Shown here piece by piece: positions 2,501-21,000 of a DNA stretch of 23,183 nucleotides. The number at the start of each line of letters is the position of its first letter. Within the stretch, counting starts at the first letter, position 1. Below the pieces are notes generated by a model that saw nothing but the letters and a program-made list of their open reading frames with translations, was not told the origin of the DNA and ran no database searches. Source of the stretch: a virus; IMG/VR virus record IMGVR_UViG_3300017963_000761, positions 1 through 23,183 of that record. The stretch is one strand, 5' to 3'. A program made the position numbers and the translations under genes.

Positions 2501-3322
2501 ATGGATGTTTCAGTCCTAGTGCATTGGATAAATGAACGGCAGGCTGTGTCTAAAAAGAAAAAGGCCAGTCGTCCAAAGCCTTGGACTGATGATCCTATCA
2601 TAAGGGATTATCGGTTCTGTAACGTACACAGGGAAGATGACAAAGTAACACAATGGATCACTTCTCATTGGCGTGTACCAAATGCTCATGATTTGGATTT
2701 TTGGTTTGCGGCGGCGGTGGCTAGATATGTAAATTGGCCGGACACATTGGCCATCCTAGAATATCCGATACCGTGGTCAAAATCCCACTTCTTAAAAACC
2801 CTACAAGACATCGAAGCGCGTGGTGGTAAGGTGTGGACAGGCGCTTATATAGTAAGCACCAACGGCGTCAAAATGTCCAAGCCCGAATATGTGGCTAATC
2901 TTTTAGACAATCTTTGGCAGCAACGCGACAAAATACGGCCCACAAAAGACGACACATTAGAATCGTTCTATAGAAGGCTGGTTGCTTGCAATGGCGTCGG
3001 TCAATTTATGGCGGGCCAAATTATAGCCGATTCGAAATATGTTGGTTTGTTGGCTGTGACAAAAGATTGGGGAACCTTTGCTATCAGTGGTCCGGGAAGC
3101 AGGCGCGGGATGAATCGGTTGCTAGGCAGAGATAAAAATGCACCGATATCTGAGCGGGTATGGAAGTCCAACTTGGACAAACTAGCCGACATCATTGCCA
3201 CCGAAATATCATTTGAAATGCACAACCAAGATCTCCAAAATTGCTTATGTGAATATGATAAATATGAGCGCGTCCGTTTGAAAGAAGGGCGACCACGGGC
3301 AAAATATCCAGGAATAAAATAA
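2501..3322 (+). CDS. Putative thymine hypermodification enzyme (aGPT-Pplase / 5-hmdU DNA kinase-amino acid:DNA transferase superfamily), 273 aa
   Basis: After a basic start, residues about 30-60 read DPIIRDYRFCNVHREDDKVT, the signature I associate with the alpha-glutamyl/putrescinyl thymine pyrophosphorylase superfamily. These are helical proteins of hypermodified-thymine phages that act on 5-hydroxymethyl-dU or its pyrophosphorylated form in DNA. The following FWFAAAVARYVNWPDTL segment fits the conserved helix of the family. Near residues 160-180, NGVGQFMAGQIIADSKY resembles a helix-hairpin-helix turn as in DNA glycosylase folds. I cannot decide between a pyrophosphorylase/kinase-associated and an amino-acid-transferase subfamily; no P-loop kinase is visible in this protein. 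One base separates it from the glycosyltransferase/radical SAM gene, and a thymidylate-synthase-like gene follows, which strongly supports a base modification role. Confidence 0.72.
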   Translation: MDVSVLVHWINERQAVSKKKKASRPKPWTDDPIIRDYRFCNVHREDDKVTQWITSHWRVPNAHDLDFWFAAAVARYVNWPDTLAILEYPIPWSKSHFLKTLQDIEARGGKVWTGAYIVSTNGVKMSKPEYVANLLDNLWQQRDKIRPTKDDTLESFYRRLVACNGVGQFMAGQIIADSKYVGLLAVTKDWGTFAISGPGSRRGMNRLLGRDKNAPISERVWKSNLDKLADIIATEISFEMHNQDLQNCLCEYDKYERVRLKEGRPRAKYPGIK

Positions 3323-3323
3323 C

Positions 3324-5063
3324 ATGAAAATATTTATAATCACATTAGGTCGGCCGGACAATCAAAAAACATACAAGCAGCTTTCGTTTCTTGATGATGT
3401 TTATTTTGTATGTGACGATCATGAAGCTAGTATTCACAGGGAACTATATGGGCCTAATGTTTTATCAGACAAGTTTGATGGATTAGGTCATAAAAGGCAG
3501 TGGATTGTAGATCAATTCCCTAATGAAAAAATCGTTATGTTTGACGACGACTTGGATTTGTGTGTTCGTAAATCCGACGAGTCCTACCATTTAAGGCGCT
3601 CGGAAGATGAAGATGTTGTCAAGATGCTTGCTAAAATGGAGTCACTTTTAGACGTTTACCCTATTGTTGGATTGAGCTCGCGACAGGGGAACAACAACCT
3701 ATTCCCTAAAAAGATTGTTTATGCCACGCGGCAAACTGCTGTTCATGCGATAAACACTGGAACATTTAAAGAGCACGGGTTGTCATATATTGATGAGGAC
3801 TTCCCGTTGATGGAAGATTTCAATGTGTTGCTTTCATTACTAACACAGGGGATCCCAAATGCAGTGATCGCAGATTATGCATGGAACCACGGGGCCTCTA
3901 ATGCGAAAGGAGGCTGCTCTGCATTTAGAACGCCCGAGCTCCAAGAGCGTTGCTCTAACAATTTAAAAGCAGCTTTTCCAGACTTTGTTAATGTAGTGAC
4001 CAAAAAGAAAAAGACTGGATGGGAAGGAATGAAAGAACGTGTTGACGTAATCATCCAATGGAAAAAGGCGTTCGAATATGGTAAATCTAAAAAGGGAGCA
4101 TCAAATTCTGTGTTGGACTTAGACCCACAAGACCCACCCAATAGCATTCAAATAGAATTCACTGAAGGTTGTAATCTACAATGTTCTTTTTGTGGTGTGC
4201 AGGGCATGCGCGAAAAAGCAGGCGACTACAAATTCATGGATGAAGACACGTTAACTAGAATTGCGATTGAGATAAGAGAAGCCGGTTGGAATAGCCGGAT
4301 TGAACTTGCCATGCATGGCGAGCCAACTATGAATAAGAAGATGGTTGACTTTGTGCGCATATTACGTGAAAACCTGCCTAAACATTCTCTAATGATGACC
4401 AGTAATGGCGGCGGGTTGTTGGGCAAGCCCTATCTTATAGACGACTTATTTGAAGCGGGTCTTAACTGTTTAGCATTGGACGATTATGACACGGTCAATA
4501 TAGTGCCTAAACTAATTGAAAAATGGGAAAATAAAAACGACTATCAAGTTACGGAATACCCAAACGATCTAAACATTTCGCCACACCATCGCCGCAAGCC
4601 GAATGAACACATTGTCATTGTGATTGGTGATATCACACAGAATTCAAAAGGAACTCACGCTAAATTAGCCACGCATTGTGGAGCAGGCGGTGAACCACCG
4701 TTGGAACCATTTGAAAAACGGTGTGCAAAACCTTTTAGAGAATTGTCGTTCAGGTATGACGGATCGGTTTGCATATGTTGTGAAGACTTCCGTGGGGAGT
4801 ATTTTGTGGACAACATACATAACAATGACATTGTTTCATTATGGAATTCAGAGCGGTTTCAAGCAGCTCGGATCATGCTATACAACAAAAGCAGGGATTT
4901 CCACCCGTGCCGGTTATGCACAAACACTTCACTTCGTGTTGGCATACTGCCTGATCGAATGGGGAAGAAAGATTTGCCAAAAATAACTGATGAAGTCAAA
5001 GAAATTGTTAATGAAAAAAGCATACCTTTATCAAAAATTGTATTAAGAGAATGGGAGAAATAA
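3324..5063 (+). CDS. Fusion of a GT-A-like glycosyltransferase and a radical SAM/SPASM enzyme, 579 aa
   Basis: Residues 1 to about 250 look like a GT-A glycosyltransferase: MKIFIITLGRPDNQ opens the nucleotide-binding strand, and IVMFDDDLDL places an acidic DXD-type cluster at 74-78, where sugar-nucleotide metal binding is expected. A linker follows, then a radical SAM core with EGCNLQCSFCGVQ; Cys283, Cys287 and Cys290 form the CX3CX2C iron-sulfur/SAM motif. Near the C-terminus Cys452, 467, 483, 485, 486, 529 and 532 form a SPASM-like auxiliary cluster region, with the typical FRYDGSVCICCED strand pair. The N-terminal domain resembles the TET/JBP-associated glycosyltransferases predicted for phage base modification. 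Position between the aGPT-Pplase-like and TS-like genes suggests it finishes a modified thymine, by sugar transfer and a radical rearrangement or C-C bond step. The substrates are unknown. Confidence 0.75.
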   Translation: MKIFIITLGRPDNQKTYKQLSFLDDVYFVCDDHEASIHRELYGPNVLSDKFDGLGHKRQWIVDQFPNEKIVMFDDDLDLCVRKSDESYHLRRSEDEDVVKMLAKMESLLDVYPIVGLSSRQGNNNLFPKKIVYATRQTAVHAINTGTFKEHGLSYIDEDFPLMEDFNVLLSLLTQGIPNAVIADYAWNHGASNAKGGCSAFRTPELQERCSNNLKAAFPDFVNVVTKKKKTGWEGMKERVDVIIQWKKAFEYGKSKKGASNSVLDLDPQDPPNSIQIEFTEGCNLQCSFCGVQGMREKAGDYKFMDEDTLTRIAIEIREAGWNSRIELAMHGEPTMNKKMVDFVRILRENLPKHSLMMTSNGGGLLGKPYLIDDLFEAGLNCLALDDYDTVNIVPKLIEKWENKNDYQVTEYPNDLNISPHHRRKPNEHIVIVIGDITQNSKGTHAKLATHCGAGGEPPLEPFEKRCAKPFRELSFRYDGSVCICCEDFRGEYFVDNIHNNDIVSLWNSERFQAARIMLYNKSRDFHPCRLCTNTSLRVGILPDRMGKKDLPKITDEVKEIVNEKSIPLSKIVLREWEK

Positions 5064-5064
5064 G

Positions 5065-6045
5065 ATGCTGACGATAAGAGCACGTAATGTCAATGAGGCG
5101 TTGTACATTGGTATGATTCACATGAGAAGTGATAATGTCCGGGATGTGTCACCCCGCGGGGACGCGACTTTAGAATACGTGACGCCCGTTGCGACAACTT
5201 ACCTCAATCCATGTGAGCGGGTTTTATCCAGCAAAGTCCGTGATGCTAATCCATTTTTCCATTTGATGGAAGCACTGTGGATTTTAGCAGGCCGTCAAGA
5301 TGTGGCGTGGTTGGCCCAATTCAATAATCGTATGCGCGAATACAGTGATGATCACGAAATATTCCATGCGCCATACGGCTATAGATTACGCACCGAAGCA
5401 GGTTTTGACCAAATTGAAACCGCGATAGATTTATTAAAAGAAGATCCATCTACACGGCGGGCGGTGTTGCAAATTTGGTTCGCTGGTCGCGATCTTGGTG
5501 CGGATTCTAAAGACATCCCGTGCAATGATTTGGTGTTTTGCAAAATACGTGATGGGAAATTGAACATTAGTGTCGCCAATCGGAGCAATGATATGGTCTG
5601 GGGTGCCTATGGTGCCAACGCGGTTCAATTTAGTGTGATCCAAGAGTACATGGCAGCGAAGCTGGACGTTAAAGTTGGAACCTACACACAAGTGAGCGAT
5701 TCGTTCCACGTCTACACAGGCGGTATGGGGGGCGCTGTATGGAACAGGTTAAAAGACGACCACAGCGGTTTGATTGATTACTACCAATCGGATGAAATAA
5801 ATCCGTTCCCATTAGTAAAAGACCCAGAAAATTTTGATAAGGAATTGATGGCGTTTGTGGGGGACGACCCAACTGAATATAAATATGCCGAACCTTTCCT
5901 TGACTTTGTGGCGGTGCCTGCTTTGATCGCATGGAAAGCACACAAAGCGGGAGATATCACTAGCGCATTGAATGCGGTTGAGGCTATCATAGCACCTGAT
6001 TGGCGTATAGCGATGAGGGAATGGTTAGAACGCCGTCAAAAATAA
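5065..6045 (+). CDS. Thymidylate synthase-fold enzyme, probable dUMP hydroxymethylase, 326 aa
   Basis: The protein follows the thymidylate synthase fold. Residues seen are Glu69 in EALWILAG, the phosphate-binding Arg131-Arg132, the nucleophile Cys153 in DIPCND, Arg173-Ser174 and Asp176 in NRSNDMVWG, Asn185 in GANAVQF, and the His215/Tyr217 pair in SDSFHVYTGG. Asn185 lines up with the TS residue that selects uracil; dCMP hydroxymethylases carry Asp there, so dUMP is the likely substrate. The histidine that usually follows the catalytic cysteine in TS is Asn154 here, a sign of changed chemistry. With hypermodification genes directly upstream, 5-hydroxymethyl-dUMP is the probable product, made with methylene-tetrahydrofolate and water. 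A plain thymidylate synthase remains possible. It starts two bases after the fusion gene's stop. Confidence 0.8.
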   Translation: MLTIRARNVNEALYIGMIHMRSDNVRDVSPRGDATLEYVTPVATTYLNPCERVLSSKVRDANPFFHLMEALWILAGRQDVAWLAQFNNRMREYSDDHEIFHAPYGYRLRTEAGFDQIETAIDLLKEDPSTRRAVLQIWFAGRDLGADSKDIPCNDLVFCKIRDGKLNISVANRSNDMVWGAYGANAVQFSVIQEYMAAKLDVKVGTYTQVSDSFHVYTGGMGGAVWNRLKDDHSGLIDYYQSDEINPFPLVKDPENFDKELMAFVGDDPTEYKYAEPFLDFVAVPALIAWKAHKAGDITSALNAVEAIIAPDWRIAMREWLERRQK

Positions 6046-6074: not shown

Positions 6075-6575
6075 ATGGACAAGACTGACGTCCTTGAAAA
6101 CAAATTCAAGAATAAACCGTACCCAATAAATCGACTTCCATCGAGAACAAAAAAGTGCGATTATAGATGGGTCAGTAAAAAGAGTCATGTTGGGAAAGTG
6201 GCTAAAATATTAATTTATTTGATAGCACAACCAACAAGGAAGGACGAGCAGGTTACTATCTCTCGTGAATTTGTTAAGGCCGATTATCTGTACGATAATT
6301 TCACACGGTTGCTGCCGTGGTTTAATGAAATGGAATACAAAGCAGATACAGGGAACGAAATGACGCCGTCTGTTTTGTTGAACCGTCATCACAAGATGTA
6401 TTATAAATACGATACCAAAAGTCCTGAGCTCCGGTGTGTAATGTCGAACGAGCATCCGCTCAATTCCGAAAAGCTTGCGCCGTTTTTGCAAATAGCACAA
6501 ACCATTTTTCAAAACCAAAAACCCGTCAGTCGTGAATGGGTGCTTGCACAAATCGCGGAGGTGACGAATGTTTAA
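6075..6575 (+). CDS. Hypothetical protein, 166 aa
   Basis: Unrecognised. A TAACAGGAGA element sits six bases from the ATG. The N-terminal third is basic and Arg/Lys-rich (residues 22-50), the middle contains SREFVKADYLYDNFTRLLPWFNEM, and a His-His-Lys (NRHHKMYYKY) occurs near residue 105, without a recognisable nuclease pattern around it. The C-terminus looks helical. It ends inside the start region of the HD-domain gene, whose ribosome-binding site GGAGGTGA lies in its last codons. Its place between the TS-like gene and a nucleotidase hints at replication or DNA metabolism, which is inference. Confidence 0.68.
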   Translation: MDKTDVLENKFKNKPYPINRLPSRTKKCDYRWVSKKSHVGKVAKILIYLIAQPTRKDEQVTISREFVKADYLYDNFTRLLPWFNEMEYKADTGNEMTPSVLLNRHHKMYYKYDTKSPELRCVMSNEHPLNSEKLAPFLQIAQTIFQNQKPVSREWVLAQIAEVTNV

Positions 6576-7065
6576 ATGGTTAGAAATGACGCGGTGTGGT
6601 GCAGGTATTAATCGTTTCCACACGACGCCGGTAATCGGTGATCCTCAAAGTGTCGCTTCGCATTCGTTTGGTGTTGCTATGTTGGCCTTATTTTTAGAAC
6701 CAGATTTAGCAACAATGAATTTGATAAAAGCTGCTTTATACCATGATCTAGCTGAACAAGTTACGGGCGACGTTCCTGCTCATGTTAAGTGGGAAAATCC
6801 CGCTGTGAAAGCAAGCCTGCTAGAAGTTGAAAAACGGTTTGAAATCGAATGGAATTTAGATATTAAACTAACACAATATGAACAAAACGTTTTACGATGG
6901 GCTGACATGTTGGAGTTGTTGTTTTACTGCAAAGAGCAAAGGATGTTAGGTAATAAAAACATGGATCACATTTTTGCAAGGGGTTCCGAAAGCCTGAGCA
7001 CACTACCAGCACATGAAAAAGGCCAAGAATTATTGAACTATTTACAGGAGACATACAATGAATAA
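6568..7065 (+). CDS. HD-domain 5'-deoxynucleotidase (YfbR-like), 165 aa
   Basis: This is a compact HD-domain phosphohydrolase. His32 in SVASHSFGVAML, His59-Asp60 in LYHDLAEQVTGDVP and Asp113 in RWADMLELL form the H...HD...D metal site. Arg16 lies near the N-terminus where YfbR enzymes bind the substrate phosphate. Length fits the small YfbR/DatZ-like group that hydrolyses deoxynucleoside mono- or triphosphates. In this context it may remove an unwanted thymidine nucleotide so that the modified precursor is used, or feed the dUMP pool; neither can be decided from sequence. The start is given by GGAGGTGACGA just before the ATG, and its end overlaps the DUF3310 gene by eight bases. Confidence 0.8.
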   Translation: MFKWLEMTRCGAGINRFHTTPVIGDPQSVASHSFGVAMLALFLEPDLATMNLIKAALYHDLAEQVTGDVPAHVKWENPAVKASLLEVEKRFEIEWNLDIKLTQYEQNVLRWADMLELLFYCKEQRMLGNKNMDHIFARGSESLSTLPAHEKGQELLNYLQETYNE

Positions 7066-7318
7066 TAAAGCAAACGACCGACAAGTGGCGGGCGAACATT
7101 ACAAATCTAAAATCCAACATTGGGATTATGTGATAGCTAACAATTTAGATTATTTCCAAGCACAAGTCACCAAGTATGTCACGCGACATCGTGGGAAAAA
7201 CGGAATTGAAGATTTAAAAAAGGCTCAGCACTTCCTAGAAAAATATATTGAAGTGTTAGAAGCAGAAGCTGAAGCAGAAGCCTCTGAGCCTGGACATGGT
7301 TATGTCGACCAGGATTAA
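7058..7318 (+). CDS. DUF3310 family protein, 86 aa
   Basis: The segment from about residue 8, RQVAGEHYKSKIQHWDYVI, then FQAQVTKYVTRHRGKNG and DLKKAQHFLEKYIE, is the DUF3310 pattern often seen in phages and annotated loosely as a nucleotide kinase, although no P-loop is present. The role is not established. It accompanies replication and nucleotide genes in many phages, as it does here. The C-terminal tail is a short Glu-Ala repeat (EAEAEAEASE). The ribosome-binding site is ACAGGAGA nine bases upstream, inside the end of the HD gene. Confidence 0.82.
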   Translation: MNNKANDRQVAGEHYKSKIQHWDYVIANNLDYFQAQVTKYVTRHRGKNGIEDLKKAQHFLEKYIEVLEAEAEAEASEPGHGYVDQD

Positions 7319-7341: not shown

Positions 7342-7533
7342 ATGGAGCATCGAAATGCCCGAATAAATGATGCTCAAGTTATTGCGATTAGAATATGGTT
7401 GAAGCACGGGTTCCGTCAAGAAGTGGTCGCTGAAGCGTTTGGAATTTCCCAAACCACTGTGAACAATGTGTGGAAGAGGAACACTTGGAAACATTTAACT
7501 GAAACAGATATTAGGAAATGTGAGTATGGTTGA
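7342..7533 (+). CDS. Small HTH protein resembling homing-endonuclease DNA-recognition modules, 63 aa
   Basis: Residues about 8-50 read as a helix-turn-helix: NDAQVIAIRIWLKHGF, then QEVVAEAFGISQTTVNNVW and KRNTWKHL. The Asn-x-x-Trp-Lys-His ending is typical of the small HTH units at the C-terminus of HNH homing endonucleases, but no nuclease domain is attached. It may be a regulator or a remnant of such an enzyme. Ribosome-binding site AAAGGGG lies seven bases before the ATG. The gene's end overlaps the DNA polymerase start by 14 bases. Confidence 0.65.
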   Translation: MEHRNARINDAQVIAIRIWLKHGFRQEVVAEAFGISQTTVNNVWKRNTWKHLTETDIRKCEYG

Positions 7534-9460
7534 TTTCCCAGATTTAAGCAGGGCGAAAGAAATTGTCATTGATGTTGAAACCAAAGATTTAAACCTACTG
7601 ACTAAAGGTCCTGGAGCGGCCCGTAGTGATGGTCATATTGTTGGGTTGGCCGTTGGTGTTGAAGGAAAACAGTGGTATTTTCCGATGAGACACGAATGCG
7701 ACGACAGCTATAAAAATATCAAGCCGGAAGTTGTGTTGCTATGGGCGCAACGTGAATTATGTCGACCAAACCAGCCGAAGATCGGCGCTAATCTAATATA
7801 CGATTTAGAATTCTTATATAAAGAAGGCGTCGAAGTGGCGGGACCGTTCTATGACATACAATACGCGGAACCTTTATTAGACGAACACGCTTTGACTTAC
7901 AGTTTGGATTCATTAGCGAACAAATATCTAAACGAAAGCAAGGTTGACGACGAATTATATGAACACTTGTGGCGCAAATTCAAAGGCCCTAAAGGACGAA
8001 AGCAGGCGGGCAACATTTGGCGTGCTCCGATTAGTTTGGTTGAGCCCTATGCAAAAGGCGACGTTGATTTACCGTTACGCATATTTGAAAAACAAAAGAT
8101 TGTATTGGAATCTGAAGGTCTAGTTGATCTGTTTAAGTTGGAATGTCGGTTGCTGCCTTTGTTGTTGGAGATGCGGTTGAATGGCGTGCGAGTAGATGTT
8201 GATAAAAGCACATCGTTGAGCAAGGAATTCGCAAAGAGCATTAACACCGCACAACTAGAATTGAATGCAATTGCTCGCAGGCCCTTGAACTTTAATGCAG
8301 CGGCGGACATTGCCAAAACAGCCGACGAGCTCGGTATTGAATACCCGCGCACAAAGAAAACCAAGGCTCCAAGTTTTACCGCAAGTTGGTTGGAGAACCA
8401 TGATCATGAGTTAATGCGGAAAATATTTGAGATACGCAAGCTAGAAAAGATACGTGGTACGTTCACAGATAGCTATATATTAAACAATGCAGTTAACGGA
8501 CGTATCCACTGCCAGTTCCACCCACTAAAGAACGACGAATACGGTACGGTCAGCGGGCGCTTTAGCAGTTCGAATCCAAACCTGCAAAACATTCCAGCAC
8601 GTGATCCAATTTTAGCACCACTCATTCGGGGGTTGTTTATACCGGAGGAGGGTGAGGATTGGTACAAGTTTGATTGGAGTCAAATTGAATATCGGTTGAT
8701 GGCGCACTATGCACTCGGGAAAGGCTCCGACAATGTTAGGGCCCGCTTTAACAAAAACCCACTGACTGATTATCACCAATTGACCGCTGAATTAATTCAT
8801 GAGCAAACAGGTTTGGACATTGGCAGGAAGGCAACTAAGAATATAAACTTTGGATTGATCTATGGTATGGGAAAGGCAGCGTTGGCCCGTGGTCTAGGAT
8901 TAAGCAAACAGGAAGCAGAGGAATTATTTAATGCATATTTTGACGGTGCCCCCTTTGTTAAAGAAACGACGGGCCAAATTAGTCGCGTCGCGGCTTCGCG
9001 CGGGTACATTAGGACCATACTTGGCCGGAGGGCCCGGTTCCCGTTCTGGGAGGATGCGAAGTTTAGAACGGATGAGGAGAAGAAGATTGTTGAAGCGGAG
9101 AAAGGAAAAGACTGGTTTAAATACACAAGAGATCCAGCCGAAGCCCGTAAAAAATGGCGACGAGTAAAACGGGCACGCACGCACAAAAGCGCGAACAGTT
9201 TGTTCCAAGGCAGCGCGGCTGATCTAATGAAGTTGGCGATGGTGCAAGTATGGGAAAGCGGTGTTTGTGATGTAGTCGGTGCGCCCTTGCTTACTGTACA
9301 CGATGAAATGGATTTTAGCATACCACGCACAAAAGCAGGCCGCGAAGCTGCTAAAGAAATAAAGCACATTATGGAAACCTGTTATGAACTAAAAGTGCCG
9401 TTGATTGCCGACGTGGAAATTGGGCCTGATTGGGGTAACGTAGACGAGGTTGAACTGTGA
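7520..9460 (+). CDS. Family A DNA polymerase with 3'-5' exonuclease domain, 646 aa
   Basis: This is the phage replicative polymerase. An N-terminal proofreading exonuclease begins with Asp18 and Glu20 in IVIDVETKDL, then GANLIYDLEFLYK and the Exo III region YAKGDVDLPLRIF. The polymerase domain has motif A (DWSQIEYRLMAHYA), the O-helix motif B (RKATKNINFGLIYGMG) and motif C (LLTVHDEMDFSIP). The O-helix carries Phe rather than the T7 Tyr, so dideoxynucleotides should be discriminated as in E. coli Pol I. There is no 5'-3' exonuclease domain, and the length is close to T7 DNA polymerase. The start may be GTG 7520 or ATG 7526; AGGAA at 7513 fits 7526 slightly better. It must accept the modified dUTP analogue if the hypermodification model holds. 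The stop overlaps the lipoprotein gene. Confidence 0.95.
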   Translation: MSMVDFPDLSRAKEIVIDVETKDLNLLTKGPGAARSDGHIVGLAVGVEGKQWYFPMRHECDDSYKNIKPEVVLLWAQRELCRPNQPKIGANLIYDLEFLYKEGVEVAGPFYDIQYAEPLLDEHALTYSLDSLANKYLNESKVDDELYEHLWRKFKGPKGRKQAGNIWRAPISLVEPYAKGDVDLPLRIFEKQKIVLESEGLVDLFKLECRLLPLLLEMRLNGVRVDVDKSTSLSKEFAKSINTAQLELNAIARRPLNFNAAADIAKTADELGIEYPRTKKTKAPSFTASWLENHDHELMRKIFEIRKLEKIRGTFTDSYILNNAVNGRIHCQFHPLKNDEYGTVSGRFSSSNPNLQNIPARDPILAPLIRGLFIPEEGEDWYKFDWSQIEYRLMAHYALGKGSDNVRARFNKNPLTDYHQLTAELIHEQTGLDIGRKATKNINFGLIYGMGKAALARGLGLSKQEAEELFNAYFDGAPFVKETTGQISRVAASRGYIRTILGRRARFPFWEDAKFRTDEEKKIVEAEKGKDWFKYTRDPAEARKKWRRVKRARTHKSANSLFQGSAADLMKLAMVQVWESGVCDVVGAPLLTVHDEMDFSIPRTKAGREAAKEIKHIMETCYELKVPLIADVEIGPDWGNVDEVEL

Positions 9461-12465: not shown

Positions 12466-12704
12466 CTGCAACAAATGACGACATAAACAAAGAAATTGAT
12501 AAGTCGCAACTAGAGTTTGAAATACTAAAGTTAAACGGGGCCATTCAAAAGCAGAAATTTAGAATACAAGATTTAGAAACGGCGTTGGGAACTTTGTTGT
12601 TGCTTAAATCTTATGAGGGCGAGGACAGGGATAAAGTGTGGATGGAGCAAGCTAAATGGAACGCTTGGGAATTCGCACGACGAACTTTTATGGGGATAAA
12701 ATAA
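12462..12704 (+). CDS. Hypothetical coiled-coil protein, 80 aa
   Basis: Residues about 8-55 form a continuous charged helix with hydrophobic heptads (LEFEILKLNGAIQKQKFR, then IQDLETALGTLLLLK), so a dimeric coiled coil is likely. The C-terminus is Trp-rich (VWMEQAKWNAWEFARRTF). No enzymatic motif. Its start follows GGAACGGAGA, and its final TAA shares a base with the ATG of the KdsA homologue (TAATG), which suggests translational coupling. Confidence 0.66.
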   Translation: MTATNDDINKEIDKSQLEFEILKLNGAIQKQKFRIQDLETALGTLLLLKSYEGEDRDKVWMEQAKWNAWEFARRTFMGIK

Positions 12705-13546
12705 TGAACAGTATGGACAAGGAACACAACATTAAAGAAGTAGATTTTAATAAATTCTTTTTGATGGCTGGTAATTGCATAGTTGAGGATCAAGAAACAA
12801 CATTGCACACAGCGGTCAAGTTGAAAGAAATATGCGCTGACCTAGATATCCAGCTAATCTATAAAAGCAGCTTTTACAAGGCAAACCGAACCAGCCTTGA
12901 AAGCTACACAGGGCCCGACACCGAAGTAGTCCGGCGGGCGTTCAGTTGGGTGCATGATATGGGGCTGCCTATTATTAGCGACATCCATACCGATTTAGAT
13001 GTGGACGTATACGGTGACTGGATTGACATCTTTCAGATACCGGCGTTCCTTTGCCGTCAAACCGATTTGTTACTAAAGGCAGGCGCAACCGACAAACCCG
13101 TGATGATTAAGAAGGGCCAATTTATTGATCCCCATATGATGAAATATGCCGTGGAAAAAGTACGGGCAGCACAAACGCCCATTCCAACGGGTTTTGTTTT
13201 ACCGAATAATATTTTGCTTTGTGAGCGGGGAACAATGCTTGGCTATAATGATTTAGTGGTTGATATGCGATCACTTAAAATTATGCAGCGGTTCGCTCCG
13301 GTGGTGTTTGATGCCACCCACAGTGTTCAAAATCCAGGCGGCAAAACCACAGGCGGCGGACGACAGTTCATTCCAACACTTGCACGGGCAGCAATTGCGG
13401 CGGGTATTGACGGACTGTTTATGGAAACCCACCCAGATCCATCCAGAGCGTTGTCTGATGCAGCGACCCAATATCCGCTGGACAATATGCGCGAATTATT
13501 AGAGGAGCTCTTAGAGATCCGTGCGGTGGCTTGGAGAGAAATGTAA
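12704..13546 (+). CDS. kdsA: 3-deoxy-D-manno-octulosonate 8-phosphate synthase (KdsA homologue), 280 aa
   Basis: KdsA condenses arabinose-5-phosphate with phosphoenolpyruvate to give Kdo-8-phosphate for lipopolysaccharide. The protein has the full TIM-barrel length and family motifs: YKSSFYKANRTSLESYTGP, ISDIHTD, FQIPAFLCRQTDLL, MIKKGQF, CERGTMLGYNDLVVDMRSL, FDATHSVQ and METHPDPSRALSD. Cys25 in AGNCIVED, His206, Glu241 and Asp252 match the four ligands of metal-dependent (class II) KdsA, unlike the Asn of the E. coli enzyme. The Asp normally found in KSSFDKANR is Tyr58. The start at 12704 matches family length; an upstream in-frame ATG at 12656 lies inside the previous gene. Presence in a phage suggests altered host surface chemistry during infection. 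The partner isomerase gene lies at 20419. Confidence 0.92.
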   Translation: MNSMDKEHNIKEVDFNKFFLMAGNCIVEDQETTLHTAVKLKEICADLDIQLIYKSSFYKANRTSLESYTGPDTEVVRRAFSWVHDMGLPIISDIHTDLDVDVYGDWIDIFQIPAFLCRQTDLLLKAGATDKPVMIKKGQFIDPHMMKYAVEKVRAAQTPIPTGFVLPNNILLCERGTMLGYNDLVVDMRSLKIMQRFAPVVFDATHSVQNPGGKTTGGGRQFIPTLARAAIAAGIDGLFMETHPDPSRALSDAATQYPLDNMRELLEELLEIRAVAWREM

Positions 13547-19039: not shown

Positions 19040-20422
19040 ATGCCGGTTAGTTTGAAACATCCCTTGTATAGAAAATACGAAGCTGATTGGCGGATGCTCC
19101 GCGACTTGGTTGCTGGATCAAGAGCGGTTAAGGAACGGGGATCAACGTACTTGCCGATTCCTGGAGGCATGGACACCGATGAATATAACGCTTACAAGAA
19201 ACGCGCTGTCGTTTACGGCGCTCTCGGCAGGACAAAGCAGGGTTTGCGCGGTGCGGTGTTCCGTAAAGAACTGGATTATGAAGGGTACGCTGACGAGGAA
19301 CATCTAAAAGACGTAACGTTGCAAGGTGAAAGCCTGCAAGCGATAGCACGTACAGTGATTGATGAACTGCTTGAGATTGGCCGGTTGGGTATTCTAGTAG
19401 ATACTGCCGAAGGTGCTGAACGGCCTTGGATGTCTATTTACACTGCCGAAAATATTGTCAATTGGCGCACCACTCGCGACAAAAGCGGGAAAGAAATAAT
19501 CACTCTTTTAGTTTTGCGCGAAGACCGAAATGAAATTGATGCCGATGACCCATTCAAAACAAACCGAATTGAGCGCTACCGTGTTATAGAAACGATTGAC
19601 GGTTTTTACCAGTACACAATCTATGAAGCAACGGACAAAAATAAGAAAGAAGATTTCAAAGTCGTAGAGGGACCGATTAACCCAACGCGCAACGGTAAGA
19701 GAATGGACTTCGTTCCTTTCACGTTTATCAACACCGATGGCCTAACGACTAGCGTTCCGAAACCACCGCTTCTTGATTTAGCTGAAATCAATATGAGCCA
19801 TTACATCACGAGCGCTGATTTGGAACATGGTGCCCATTACACGGCCCTTCCAATGGCATACTTCGCAGGCTTTGATCCGGGGACTTCTGTTAAGCTTGGA
19901 TCTAGCAACGTTATGGTCACAGATAGTTCTGACGCGAAAGCAGGTTATCTAGAATATACCGGACAAGGCTTAGGATCCCTCCAAGACATCAAGCAGGACA
20001 AACAAAAACTGATGGCCGTGTTGGGTGCGCGGTTATTAGAGGAACAAAGTAAATCAAGTGAAGCGTACGACTCAAGGCGTTTGCGATTGTCGGGCGAGAC
20101 GGGCAGCCTTGCGGACATGGTGGACATCGCTGGCGAGGGGCTGGGTTTATCACTTCGATTCATGCAATGGTGGCAACAAAAACCCGAGGACGCTGTGGTC
20201 AAGCTGAATAACGATTTCCTTGATCAGCAAATTGACCCACAAACAATCCAAGCATTGTTCCAAGCCTTGCAAGCGGGTGAAATTAGTTTTGACACTTGGT
20301 TCTTTAACTTGAAACGTGGTGAACTGGTTCCGCCTGATGTTGATGCTGAAGACGAGCAGGATCGAATTGACATGCGCCCGCCCCCACTACCAGAACCAGA
20401 ACCATCAGGGTTTGAAGAATGA
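19040..20422 (+). CDS. Portal protein, DUF4055-like, 460 aa
   Basis: It forms the dodecameric channel at one head vertex. The N-terminal HPLYRKYEADWRMLRDLVAG, then TYLPIPGGMDTDEYNAYKKRAV and RTKQGLRGAVFRKE, followed by the LLEIGRLGILVDTAE region, matches the DUF4055 phage portal family. Length is usual for it. The C-terminal tail (about 30 residues) is acidic and Pro-rich. The ATG is preceded by AAGGACGAAATA. Position after the large terminase and before the MuF gene is the standard head-module order, apart from two inserted genes. Confidence 0.85.
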   Translation: MPVSLKHPLYRKYEADWRMLRDLVAGSRAVKERGSTYLPIPGGMDTDEYNAYKKRAVVYGALGRTKQGLRGAVFRKELDYEGYADEEHLKDVTLQGESLQAIARTVIDELLEIGRLGILVDTAEGAERPWMSIYTAENIVNWRTTRDKSGKEIITLLVLREDRNEIDADDPFKTNRIERYRVIETIDGFYQYTIYEATDKNKKEDFKVVEGPINPTRNGKRMDFVPFTFINTDGLTTSVPKPPLLDLAEINMSHYITSADLEHGAHYTALPMAYFAGFDPGTSVKLGSSNVMVTDSSDAKAGYLEYTGQGLGSLQDIKQDKQKLMAVLGARLLEEQSKSSEAYDSRRLRLSGETGSLADMVDIAGEGLGLSLRFMQWWQQKPEDAVVKLNNDFLDQQIDPQTIQALFQALQAGEISFDTWFFNLKRGELVPPDVDAEDEQDRIDMRPPPLPEPEPSGFEE

Positions 20423-21000
20423 AGGGCATAGCGAAACAGGTTTTACTAGACGAGGCCGTTGCGGTTGCTAATCTAGTAAACCTCATTGACCAGGATTTCG
20501 TCGACGCTTGTAATGTCATAAAGGATTGCAAAGGTCGTGTTATTGTTACGGGCATTGGAAAGTCCGGTCACATTGGCAGTAAGCTTGCCGCAACATTGTC
20601 CTCCACTGGTTCGCCTGCTTTCTTTGTTCATGCAGCTGAAGCGGGCCACGGTGACGCCGGTATGATTACTGAAGGCGATGTCGTTATAGCCATTTCTAAT
20701 TCGGGCAAAGCAATAGAAATCCAAAACATGTTTCCAATCCTAGATCATTTGAACGTCCCGCTCATAGCCCTGACTTCAAAGTCAACCTCTCCTTTAGCTA
20801 AACGAGCAGATTTTCATTTTGATCTAGGTGTTCACAAAGAAGCTTGTCATTTGGGTTTAGCGCCCACGGCAAGCACATCAGCGGCGATGGCTTTTGGAGA
20901 TGCAATGGCTGTCGCTGTTAGTGATGCGAAAGGTTTTACACGAGATGACTTTGGGCGGTCACATCCGGCAGGTGCATTGGGAGAAATTGTGAATGGGTGA
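20419..21000 (+). CDS. kdsD: Arabinose-5-phosphate isomerase-like SIS-domain protein (KdsD type, no CBS domains), 193 aa
   Basis: The sugar isomerase fold is clear: VIVTGIGKSGHIGSKLAATL, SPAFFVHAAEAGHGDAGMI, VVIAISNSGKAIEI, KEACHLGLAPTASTSAAMAF and GFTRDDFGRSHPAGALG. Lys48, His77, Glu100 and His182 correspond to the four catalytic positions of E. coli KdsD (Lys59, His88, Glu111, His193). The family enzyme converts ribulose-5-phosphate to arabinose-5-phosphate, the substrate of KdsA, which this phage also encodes. KdsD normally has two C-terminal CBS domains; this protein stops after the SIS domain, as in short isomerases. It overlaps the portal stop by four bases and the next start by eight, so it is expressed with late structural genes. 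Confidence 0.88.
   Translation: MKGIAKQVLLDEAVAVANLVNLIDQDFVDACNVIKDCKGRVIVTGIGKSGHIGSKLAATLSSTGSPAFFVHAAEAGHGDAGMITEGDVVIAISNSGKAIEIQNMFPILDHLNVPLIALTSKSTSPLAKRADFHFDLGVHKEACHLGLAPTASTSAAMAFGDAMAVAVSDAKGFTRDDFGRSHPAGALGEIVNG

Follow-up and report, generated by a model that had tools for sequence, protein, structure and literature searches.

Which chemistry would a virus carry out on its DNA if its thymine hypermodification cassette contains a protein family named after the 5-hydroxymethyl-deoxyuridine (5-hmdU) kinase, and a sugar-transferring enzyme in place of the kinase itself? This question is raised by a compact three-gene locus in the 23,183-base virus record IMGVR_UViG_3300017963_000761 (IMG/VR), which was analysed in full and is referred to here as the window; it is probably a fragment of a larger genome. 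The genes encode a PF18723 protein, a fusion of a TAGT-family glycosyltransferase with a radical S-adenosylmethionine (SAM) domain, and a thymidylate synthase (TS)-fold enzyme of the type specific for deoxyuridine monophosphate (dUMP). To our knowledge, the known thymidine hypermodifications run via phosphorylated 5-hmdU and amino acids. It is likely that this cassette instead modifies DNA via 5-hmdU and a sugar, and, with somewhat less assurance, we consider it probable that the outcome is a glycosyl-5-hmdU hypermodification in which the sugar is altered by radical chemistry, a reading in which we infer all of the chemical steps. The resulting base may be one that is not yet described.

Gene identities in the cassette

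The window proteins were scanned with Pfam (all 24,736 models), PHROGs and NCBIfam, and the cassette comprises the following features, with neighbouring open reading frames 1 base apart:

2501..3322, + strand: PF18723 protein with a helix-hairpin-helix DNA-glycosylase-like fold, proposed 5-hmdU-DNA recognition or base-flipping partner, 273 aa (Pfam, AlphaFold2 model, Foldseek)
3324..4088, + strand: N-terminal TAGT (PF20691) DNA glycosyltransferase domain of a 579-aa protein (3324-5063), DDD metal motif at residues 74-76 invariant (Pfam, PHROGs, alignment)
4101..5063, + strand: C-terminal radical-SAM and twitch (SPASM-like) domain of the same protein (Pfam, structure model, profile, cysteine conservation)
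5065..6045, + strand: TS-fold enzyme of the dUMP type, predicted dUMP 5-hydroxymethylase, 326 aa (Pfam, PHROGs, alignment with phage M6, residues)

All three genes are real, and their identities are backed by homology. The first, in which the motif RDYRFCNVHREDDKVT is present, matches PF18723 (HMUDK_hel, the 5-hmdU DNA kinase helical domain, formerly aGPT-Pplase1) with an E value of 1.4e-42 and 146.5 bits against a cut-off of 25 bits. An earlier sequence-only reading of the locus had related this protein to the aGPT-Pplase superfamily and pointed to PF18723, PF18724 and PF18746 as the families to compare; the relationship is borne out, and PF18723 alone matches, the other two being families that would have shown because every Pfam model was scanned. 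The same reading had proposed a fusion of a glycosyltransferase with a radical-SAM enzyme, and PF20691 (TAGT, E 7e-19), PF04055 (Radical_SAM, E 9e-12) and PF13186 (SPASM, E 1e-9) do fall together in the 579-aa protein. The TAGT domain scores 69 bits against a curated cut-off of 27.5, its invariant DDD serves as the DxD-type metal motif, and the glycosyltransferase part matches phrog_842 (beta-glucosyl-HMC-alpha-glucosyltransferase) at E 1e-45. Neither half of the fusion is truncated and the linker keeps the reading frame; among the relatives examined, the fused copy is found in the window only.

The third protein matches Thymidylat_synt (Pfam, E 4e-20) and phrog_5131 (TS, E 1e-105), and aligns over its full length at 42% identity with gp58 of the 5-hmdU phage M6. 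Residue 177 of this fold decides between dUMP and deoxycytidine monophosphate (dCMP) as substrate (PMC8670742). The dUMP-type residue that had been noticed in the sequence proves to be the Asn177 equivalent, and across the homologues the Cys146 and Asn177 equivalents are kept in 159 of 159 while the dCMP-type Asp occurs in none. None of them has the Trp80 equivalent, and His147 is replaced by Asn in 157 of the 159, as is also the case in M6. This pattern fits a predicted dUMP hydroxymethylase. It also bears on the idea that the target is cytosine, as 5-hydroxymethylcytosine (hmC), and not thymine: the characterised TAGT works in hmC phages, and one related record (L169) has a TET/JBP enzyme in place of the TS-fold gene, but the uniform Asn and the occurrence of TET/JBP in a single record out of 49 make a cytosine target the least probable of the alternatives considered here.

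Kinase and glycosyltransferase as partners of PF18723

The absence of the familiar P-loop 5-hmdU kinase from the window, noted in the sequence-only reading, holds under wider searching. The kinase family PF18748 has no Pfam match in the 23 kb, iterated home-made profiles (from M6, P26218, RHph_I72 and metagenomic kinases) find no kinase there, and a Walker-A scan of the window finds the terminase alone. The home-made profiles were used because PF18748, which scores all of its positive controls (M6, P26218 and RHph_I72), is not fully sensitive and misses a kinase-like gene in record L008 that is found by direct comparison. The window likewise has no Pfam match to the amino-acid:DNA transferase family (ADDT, PF18724) and no match to M6 gp52 or gp53, the M6-type pyridoxal phosphate (PLP) enzyme and radical-SAM protein.

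The same separation is observed directly across related loci. When sampled by PF18723 only, 43 clusters divide into 15 with the kinase only, 22 with a glycosyltransferase only, 6 with neither and none with both (Fisher P 4e-7). Over all samples (n = 92), a set biased by the sampling of part of it by glycosyltransferase or radical SAM, the corresponding counts are 17, 61, 13 and 1, and the P-loop protein of the single cluster with both (L132) is unscored by PF18748. PF18723 genes partner either a kinase or a glycosyltransferase and almost never both together, and the radical-SAM enzymes divide in parallel, with the M6-type accompanying the kinase and the twitch type accompanying the glycosyltransferase. 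The family is a kinase partner by name, yet it occurs mostly without a kinase in these samples.

TAGT loci give the same association from the other side. A single-sequence scan with the fusion protein returned no relatives and alignments were needed; with an alignment of five TAGT domains, 186 relatives in viral contigs were available, of which 80 were taken. Among 23 dereplicated TAGT loci with enough flanking sequence, PF18723 is present in 21, in each case without a kinase, the TS-fold gene in all 23 and a radical-SAM gene in 10; kinase and ADDT are found in none of the 23. The domain is predicted to transfer a sugar to 5-hydroxymethyl-pyrimidine DNA. Solitary TAGT genes were reported in 288 of 753 phage genomes in a 2026 paper that describes TAGT function as yet to be defined (PMC13216743). 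Tandem TAGT genes adjoin PF18723 and TS in four records (L017, L051, L055 and L057), an arrangement that suggests disaccharide decoration.

These counts bear on a different account, in which the window belongs to a virus with kinase-type hypermodification as in M6 or ViI: the genes for kinase and transferase would be situated outside the sequenced fragment, and the TAGT-radical SAM protein would contribute one more decoration. In its favour, PF18723 takes its name from the 5-hmdU kinase and adjoins the kinase in M6, and the window is only 23 kb long. Against this stand the single co-occurrence among the 92 clusters and those records of relatives that are longer, reaching 114 kb, which contain no PF18748 match and, where TAGT-bearing, no PF18724 match over the cut-off. 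PF18748 is likewise without a score in the TAGT-bearing records tested and in 44 further radical-SAM records. We regard this account as improbable.

The AlphaFold2 model of the PF18723 protein in the window (pLDDT 95) has as its best PDB folds the OGG1-type 8-oxoguanine DNA glycosylases and the phage 5-phosphomethyl-deoxyuridine (5-PmdU) glycinyltransferase PUGT (8z2n); the matches are distant, with Foldseek probabilities of 0.98-1.00 but E values of 0.03-0.06. Kinase-linked and glycosyltransferase-linked members share many invariant polar residues. We propose a role in recognising or flipping out 5-hmdU in DNA that is common to both branches, and if the sugar-plus-radical branch holds, PF18723 would be a general 5-hmdU-DNA adaptor serving either enzyme. 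A weak PF18724 match in record L025 (1-400) falls on a fragment of a PF18723 gene; with the resemblance of the PF18723 fold to PUGT, the PF18723 and PF18724 families look distantly related.

Distribution and predicted chemistry of the radical-SAM family

In many loci the gap between the TAGT and TS genes holds a stand-alone radical-SAM gene whose product shares 44-50% identity with the window protein in its C-terminal half. An alignment search of this family found 148 relatives in viral contigs, 80 of which were kept for analysis, a single locus among 84,980 species genomes (a contig of a Patescibacteria metagenome-assembled genome) and none in 50,697 phage records. Gene context was counted over 48 loci that remained after dereplication and had 9 kb or more of flanking sequence. 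All 48 contain a glycosyltransferase; 40 of these are TAGT and the rest are other glycosyltransferase-like genes, assigned by eye and by mutual similarity since Pfam gives them no match. PF18723 accompanies 41 loci, TS 42, the kinase one and ADDT none, with an HD gene within 6 kb in 28 and polA within 6 kb in 34. Gene order varies and minimum identity among relatives is 13% for PolA against 40% for the radical SAM, which points to dissemination of the module between unrelated phages. The earlier suggestion that sugar transfer and a radical step replace the kinase route is strengthened by this recurrence beside glycosyltransferases and by the kinase-glycosyltransferase exclusion.

Two radical-SAM paralogues and two TAGT genes per module occur in L161/L162 and L168, and extra genes without a Pfam match, deacetylase- or sulfotransferase-like by eye, lie in gap open reading frames of L168, L151, L173 and L099. 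An FkbM-type methyltransferase in the module of L163 and additional glycosyltransferase-like genes in those of other phages suggest further decoration. In L164 (4664-6972 and 11723-12766), a GT4-like glycosyltransferase lies directly 5' of the radical-SAM gene with an HldE-type sugar-kinase-like gene nearby (by eye), and the surrounding 6 kb contain neither TS nor PF18723. In L169 (5869-6975 and 9263-10168), which is without TS and PF18723, the TET/JBP dioxygenase, an enzyme type that likewise produces 5-hydroxymethylpyrimidine in DNA, lies about 2-3 kb from the radical-SAM relative.

The cluster ligands of the domain are strictly conserved. The CX3CX2C motif (residues 283/287/290) and four auxiliary-cluster cysteines (467/485/529/532) are each kept in 33 of 33 sequences, and eight cysteines are invariant overall. 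The full SPASM motif, CX9-15GX4C-gap-CX2CX5CX3C-gap-C, binds two auxiliary clusters (PMC6231123); of these seven cysteines, the invariant set here contains CX12GX4C and CX2C only (plus one extra cysteine), and by the published motif the domain is classed as twitch, not full SPASM. A structure model covering the radical-SAM part of the fusion protein (pLDDT 91) has BtrN as its top structural match (TM 0.81, E 3e-14); the next ranks are taken by PqqE, SpeY (a twitch dehydrogenase) and EpeE (an epimerase). The profile search also retrieves BtrN (E 1e-21), and in its alignment the four auxiliary-cluster cysteines match the BtrN spacing. BtrN carries out a two-electron oxidation of an alcohol on a sugar-like aminocyclitol, with the auxiliary cluster probably taking an electron (PMC9012708). 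A corresponding oxidation by the viral domain is the least certain part of the proposed mechanism, and we advance it tentatively, at slightly short of an even chance.

The domain might alternatively modify the nucleotide sugar ahead of its transfer, or the base itself, for example by converting 5-hydroxymethyl to 5-formyl. An alcohol oxidation of the BtrN type would suit a -CH2OH group equally well, the BtrN substrate is a small molecule, and many phages carry the PF18723, TAGT and TS trio without a radical SAM, which marks the radical SAM as a separable tailoring step. The fusion to a DNA glycosyltransferase and the presence of a glycosyltransferase in every one of the 48 clusters instead fit a step on whatever that transferase handles, and oxidation of the hydroxyl would take away its acceptor. 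Action on a free nucleotide sugar or on the base is unlikely, although it deserves more weight than the other alternatives raised here.

Proposed pathway and relation to known systems

The genes downstream of the cassette, which include candidates for further steps of a glycosyl-5-hmdU pathway, are as follows:

6075..6575, + strand: 166-aa protein between the TS-fold and HD genes, without a convincing Pfam, PHROG or NCBIfam match
6568..7065, + strand: HD-domain 5'-deoxynucleotidase (YfbR-like), recurrent cassette neighbour (Pfam PF12917, E 6e-15)
7058..7318, + strand: small conserved neighbour, 86 aa, with a relative in Rhizobium phage RHph_I72 annotated DUF3310 (comparison with relatives)
7520..9460, + strand: DNA polymerase A (PolA), likely consumer of 5-hydroxymethyl-dUTP (tblastn to phage DNA polymerases, 49% identity)

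In the proposed pathway, the TS-fold enzyme would convert dUMP to 5-hydroxymethyl-dUMP, as its dUMP-type residues and kinship with M6 suggest. After phosphorylation of the product, PolA would incorporate it into phage DNA, and the HD nucleotidase may drain the competing dTMP/dTTP. The TAGT domain, standing in this branch where M6-type phages have the P-loop kinase, would move a sugar from a nucleotide sugar onto the 5-hydroxymethyl group in DNA, with the PF18723 protein putatively recognising or flipping out 5-hmdU. Finally, the fused BtrN-like twitch domain could abstract hydrogen from a sugar carbon and yield a ketone, or epimerise the sugar. The predicted product is a nucleotide similar to base J, its sugar altered, that would resist host nucleases or glycosylases. 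Whether this represents a widespread undescribed branch, where virus-specific twitch radical-SAM enzymes rebuild the sugar placed on 5-hmdU in DNA into keto-, epi- or further-substituted glycosyl thymines, we judge to be evenly balanced.

Elsewhere in the window, a transposase-type HTH_Tnp_1 domain (1405-1719; Pfam E 2.5e-9) has no transposase catalytic gene adjoining. A phage-borne gene for 3-deoxy-8-phosphooctulonate synthase (KdsA) lies at 12656-13546, and a KdsD/KpsF-like arabinose-5-phosphate isomerase of 193 aa, consisting of the SIS domain only, at 20419-21000 between the portal and virion structural protein genes; together they would feed the synthesis of 3-deoxy-D-manno-octulosonate (KDO). 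KdsA was considered as the donor-sugar gene of the cassette and set aside, since kdsA was not found in the 36 related records searched and is not part of the cassette unit. Lipopolysaccharide glycosyltransferases occur in phages, and with the two Kds genes at hand the TS-fold enzyme could be a plain thymidylate synthase and the fusion protein a decorator of host surface glycan or some other non-DNA target. This is very improbable given that PF18723 and TAGT are DNA-modification families, that the TS-fold enzyme lacks the Trp80/His147 equivalents as M6 does, that kdsA is missing from the relatives, and that polA so often accompanies the radical-SAM clusters.

Several points weigh against a glycosyl-5-hmdU pathway with radical tailoring. 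The biochemistry of every step is deduced from genes and models, and BtrN-like chemistry is only the best guess for the radical-SAM domain, as SPASM/twitch enzymes are not clustered by function (PMC6231123). The characterised T6 TAGT adds glucose to glucosyl-hmC, not to hmdU (PMC13216743), which makes the acceptor and sugar of the window enzyme a matter of prediction. No cultured phage record among those searched carries the radical-SAM family, the fused reading frame is known from a single contig and could still stem from a frame error, and the window is a fragment whose genome may hold a kinase elsewhere. Evolutionary distances of the cassette genes intercorrelate no better with one another than with polA, giving no extra sign of co-evolution.

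If the pathway is correct, the natural DNA bases would be extended by a second branch, one that uses sugars and performs radical chemistry on DNA; some of the "solitary" TAGT genes would gain a function, and the puzzling PF18723 family an explanation. It would also bring in a radical enzyme whose predicted substrate is double-stranded DNA. The fused protein offers one testable two-step enzyme. Neither a kinase-free glycosyltransferase branch with twitch radical SAM nor the fusion was found in the literature searched, which left out central papers of the field, so that an earlier mention is possible.

Among known systems, the closest is that of Pseudomonas phages M6 and SN1. In M6 (NC_007809) the gene order is ADDT, PLP enzyme, radical SAM, kinase, PF18723, gp56, TS, HD and polA, and the SN1 paper agrees with this anatomy (PMC9476957). 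The window shares the dUMP-type TS-fold enzyme (42% identity), the PF18723 protein (34%), the HD nucleotidase, the adjoining polA and a radical SAM in the pathway, but it is without the PF18748 kinase, the PF18724 transferase and the PLP enzyme, and the M6 radical SAM is photolyase-like, of another family than the twitch radical SAM fused to TAGT here. Part of the PF18723/TAGT/TS trio was noted earlier in HTVC023P-type pelagiphages, with no radical SAM mentioned and no fusion, whereas the window has both (PMC9599517). The N-terminal domain and T6 TAGT are members of one GT-A family (PF20691; phrog_842); the T6 enzyme adds the second glucose to glucosyl-hmC, while the window TAGT is tied to a dUMP-type enzyme. 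The radical-SAM domain resembles BtrN of butirosin biosynthesis (PDB 4m7t) in fold, CX3CX2C motif and the four auxiliary-cluster cysteines. Identity is only about 20%, however, and BtrN is a stand-alone enzyme with a small aminocyclitol as substrate, not DNA. Base J of kinetoplastids is glucosyl-hmU, with the hydroxyl made in DNA by JBP dioxygenases, and we know of no radical SAM that acts in its pathway. The predicted product of the window cassette is like base J in carrying a sugar on 5-hydroxymethyluracil, and differs from it in the predicted radical-SAM step and in the origin of the hydroxyl.

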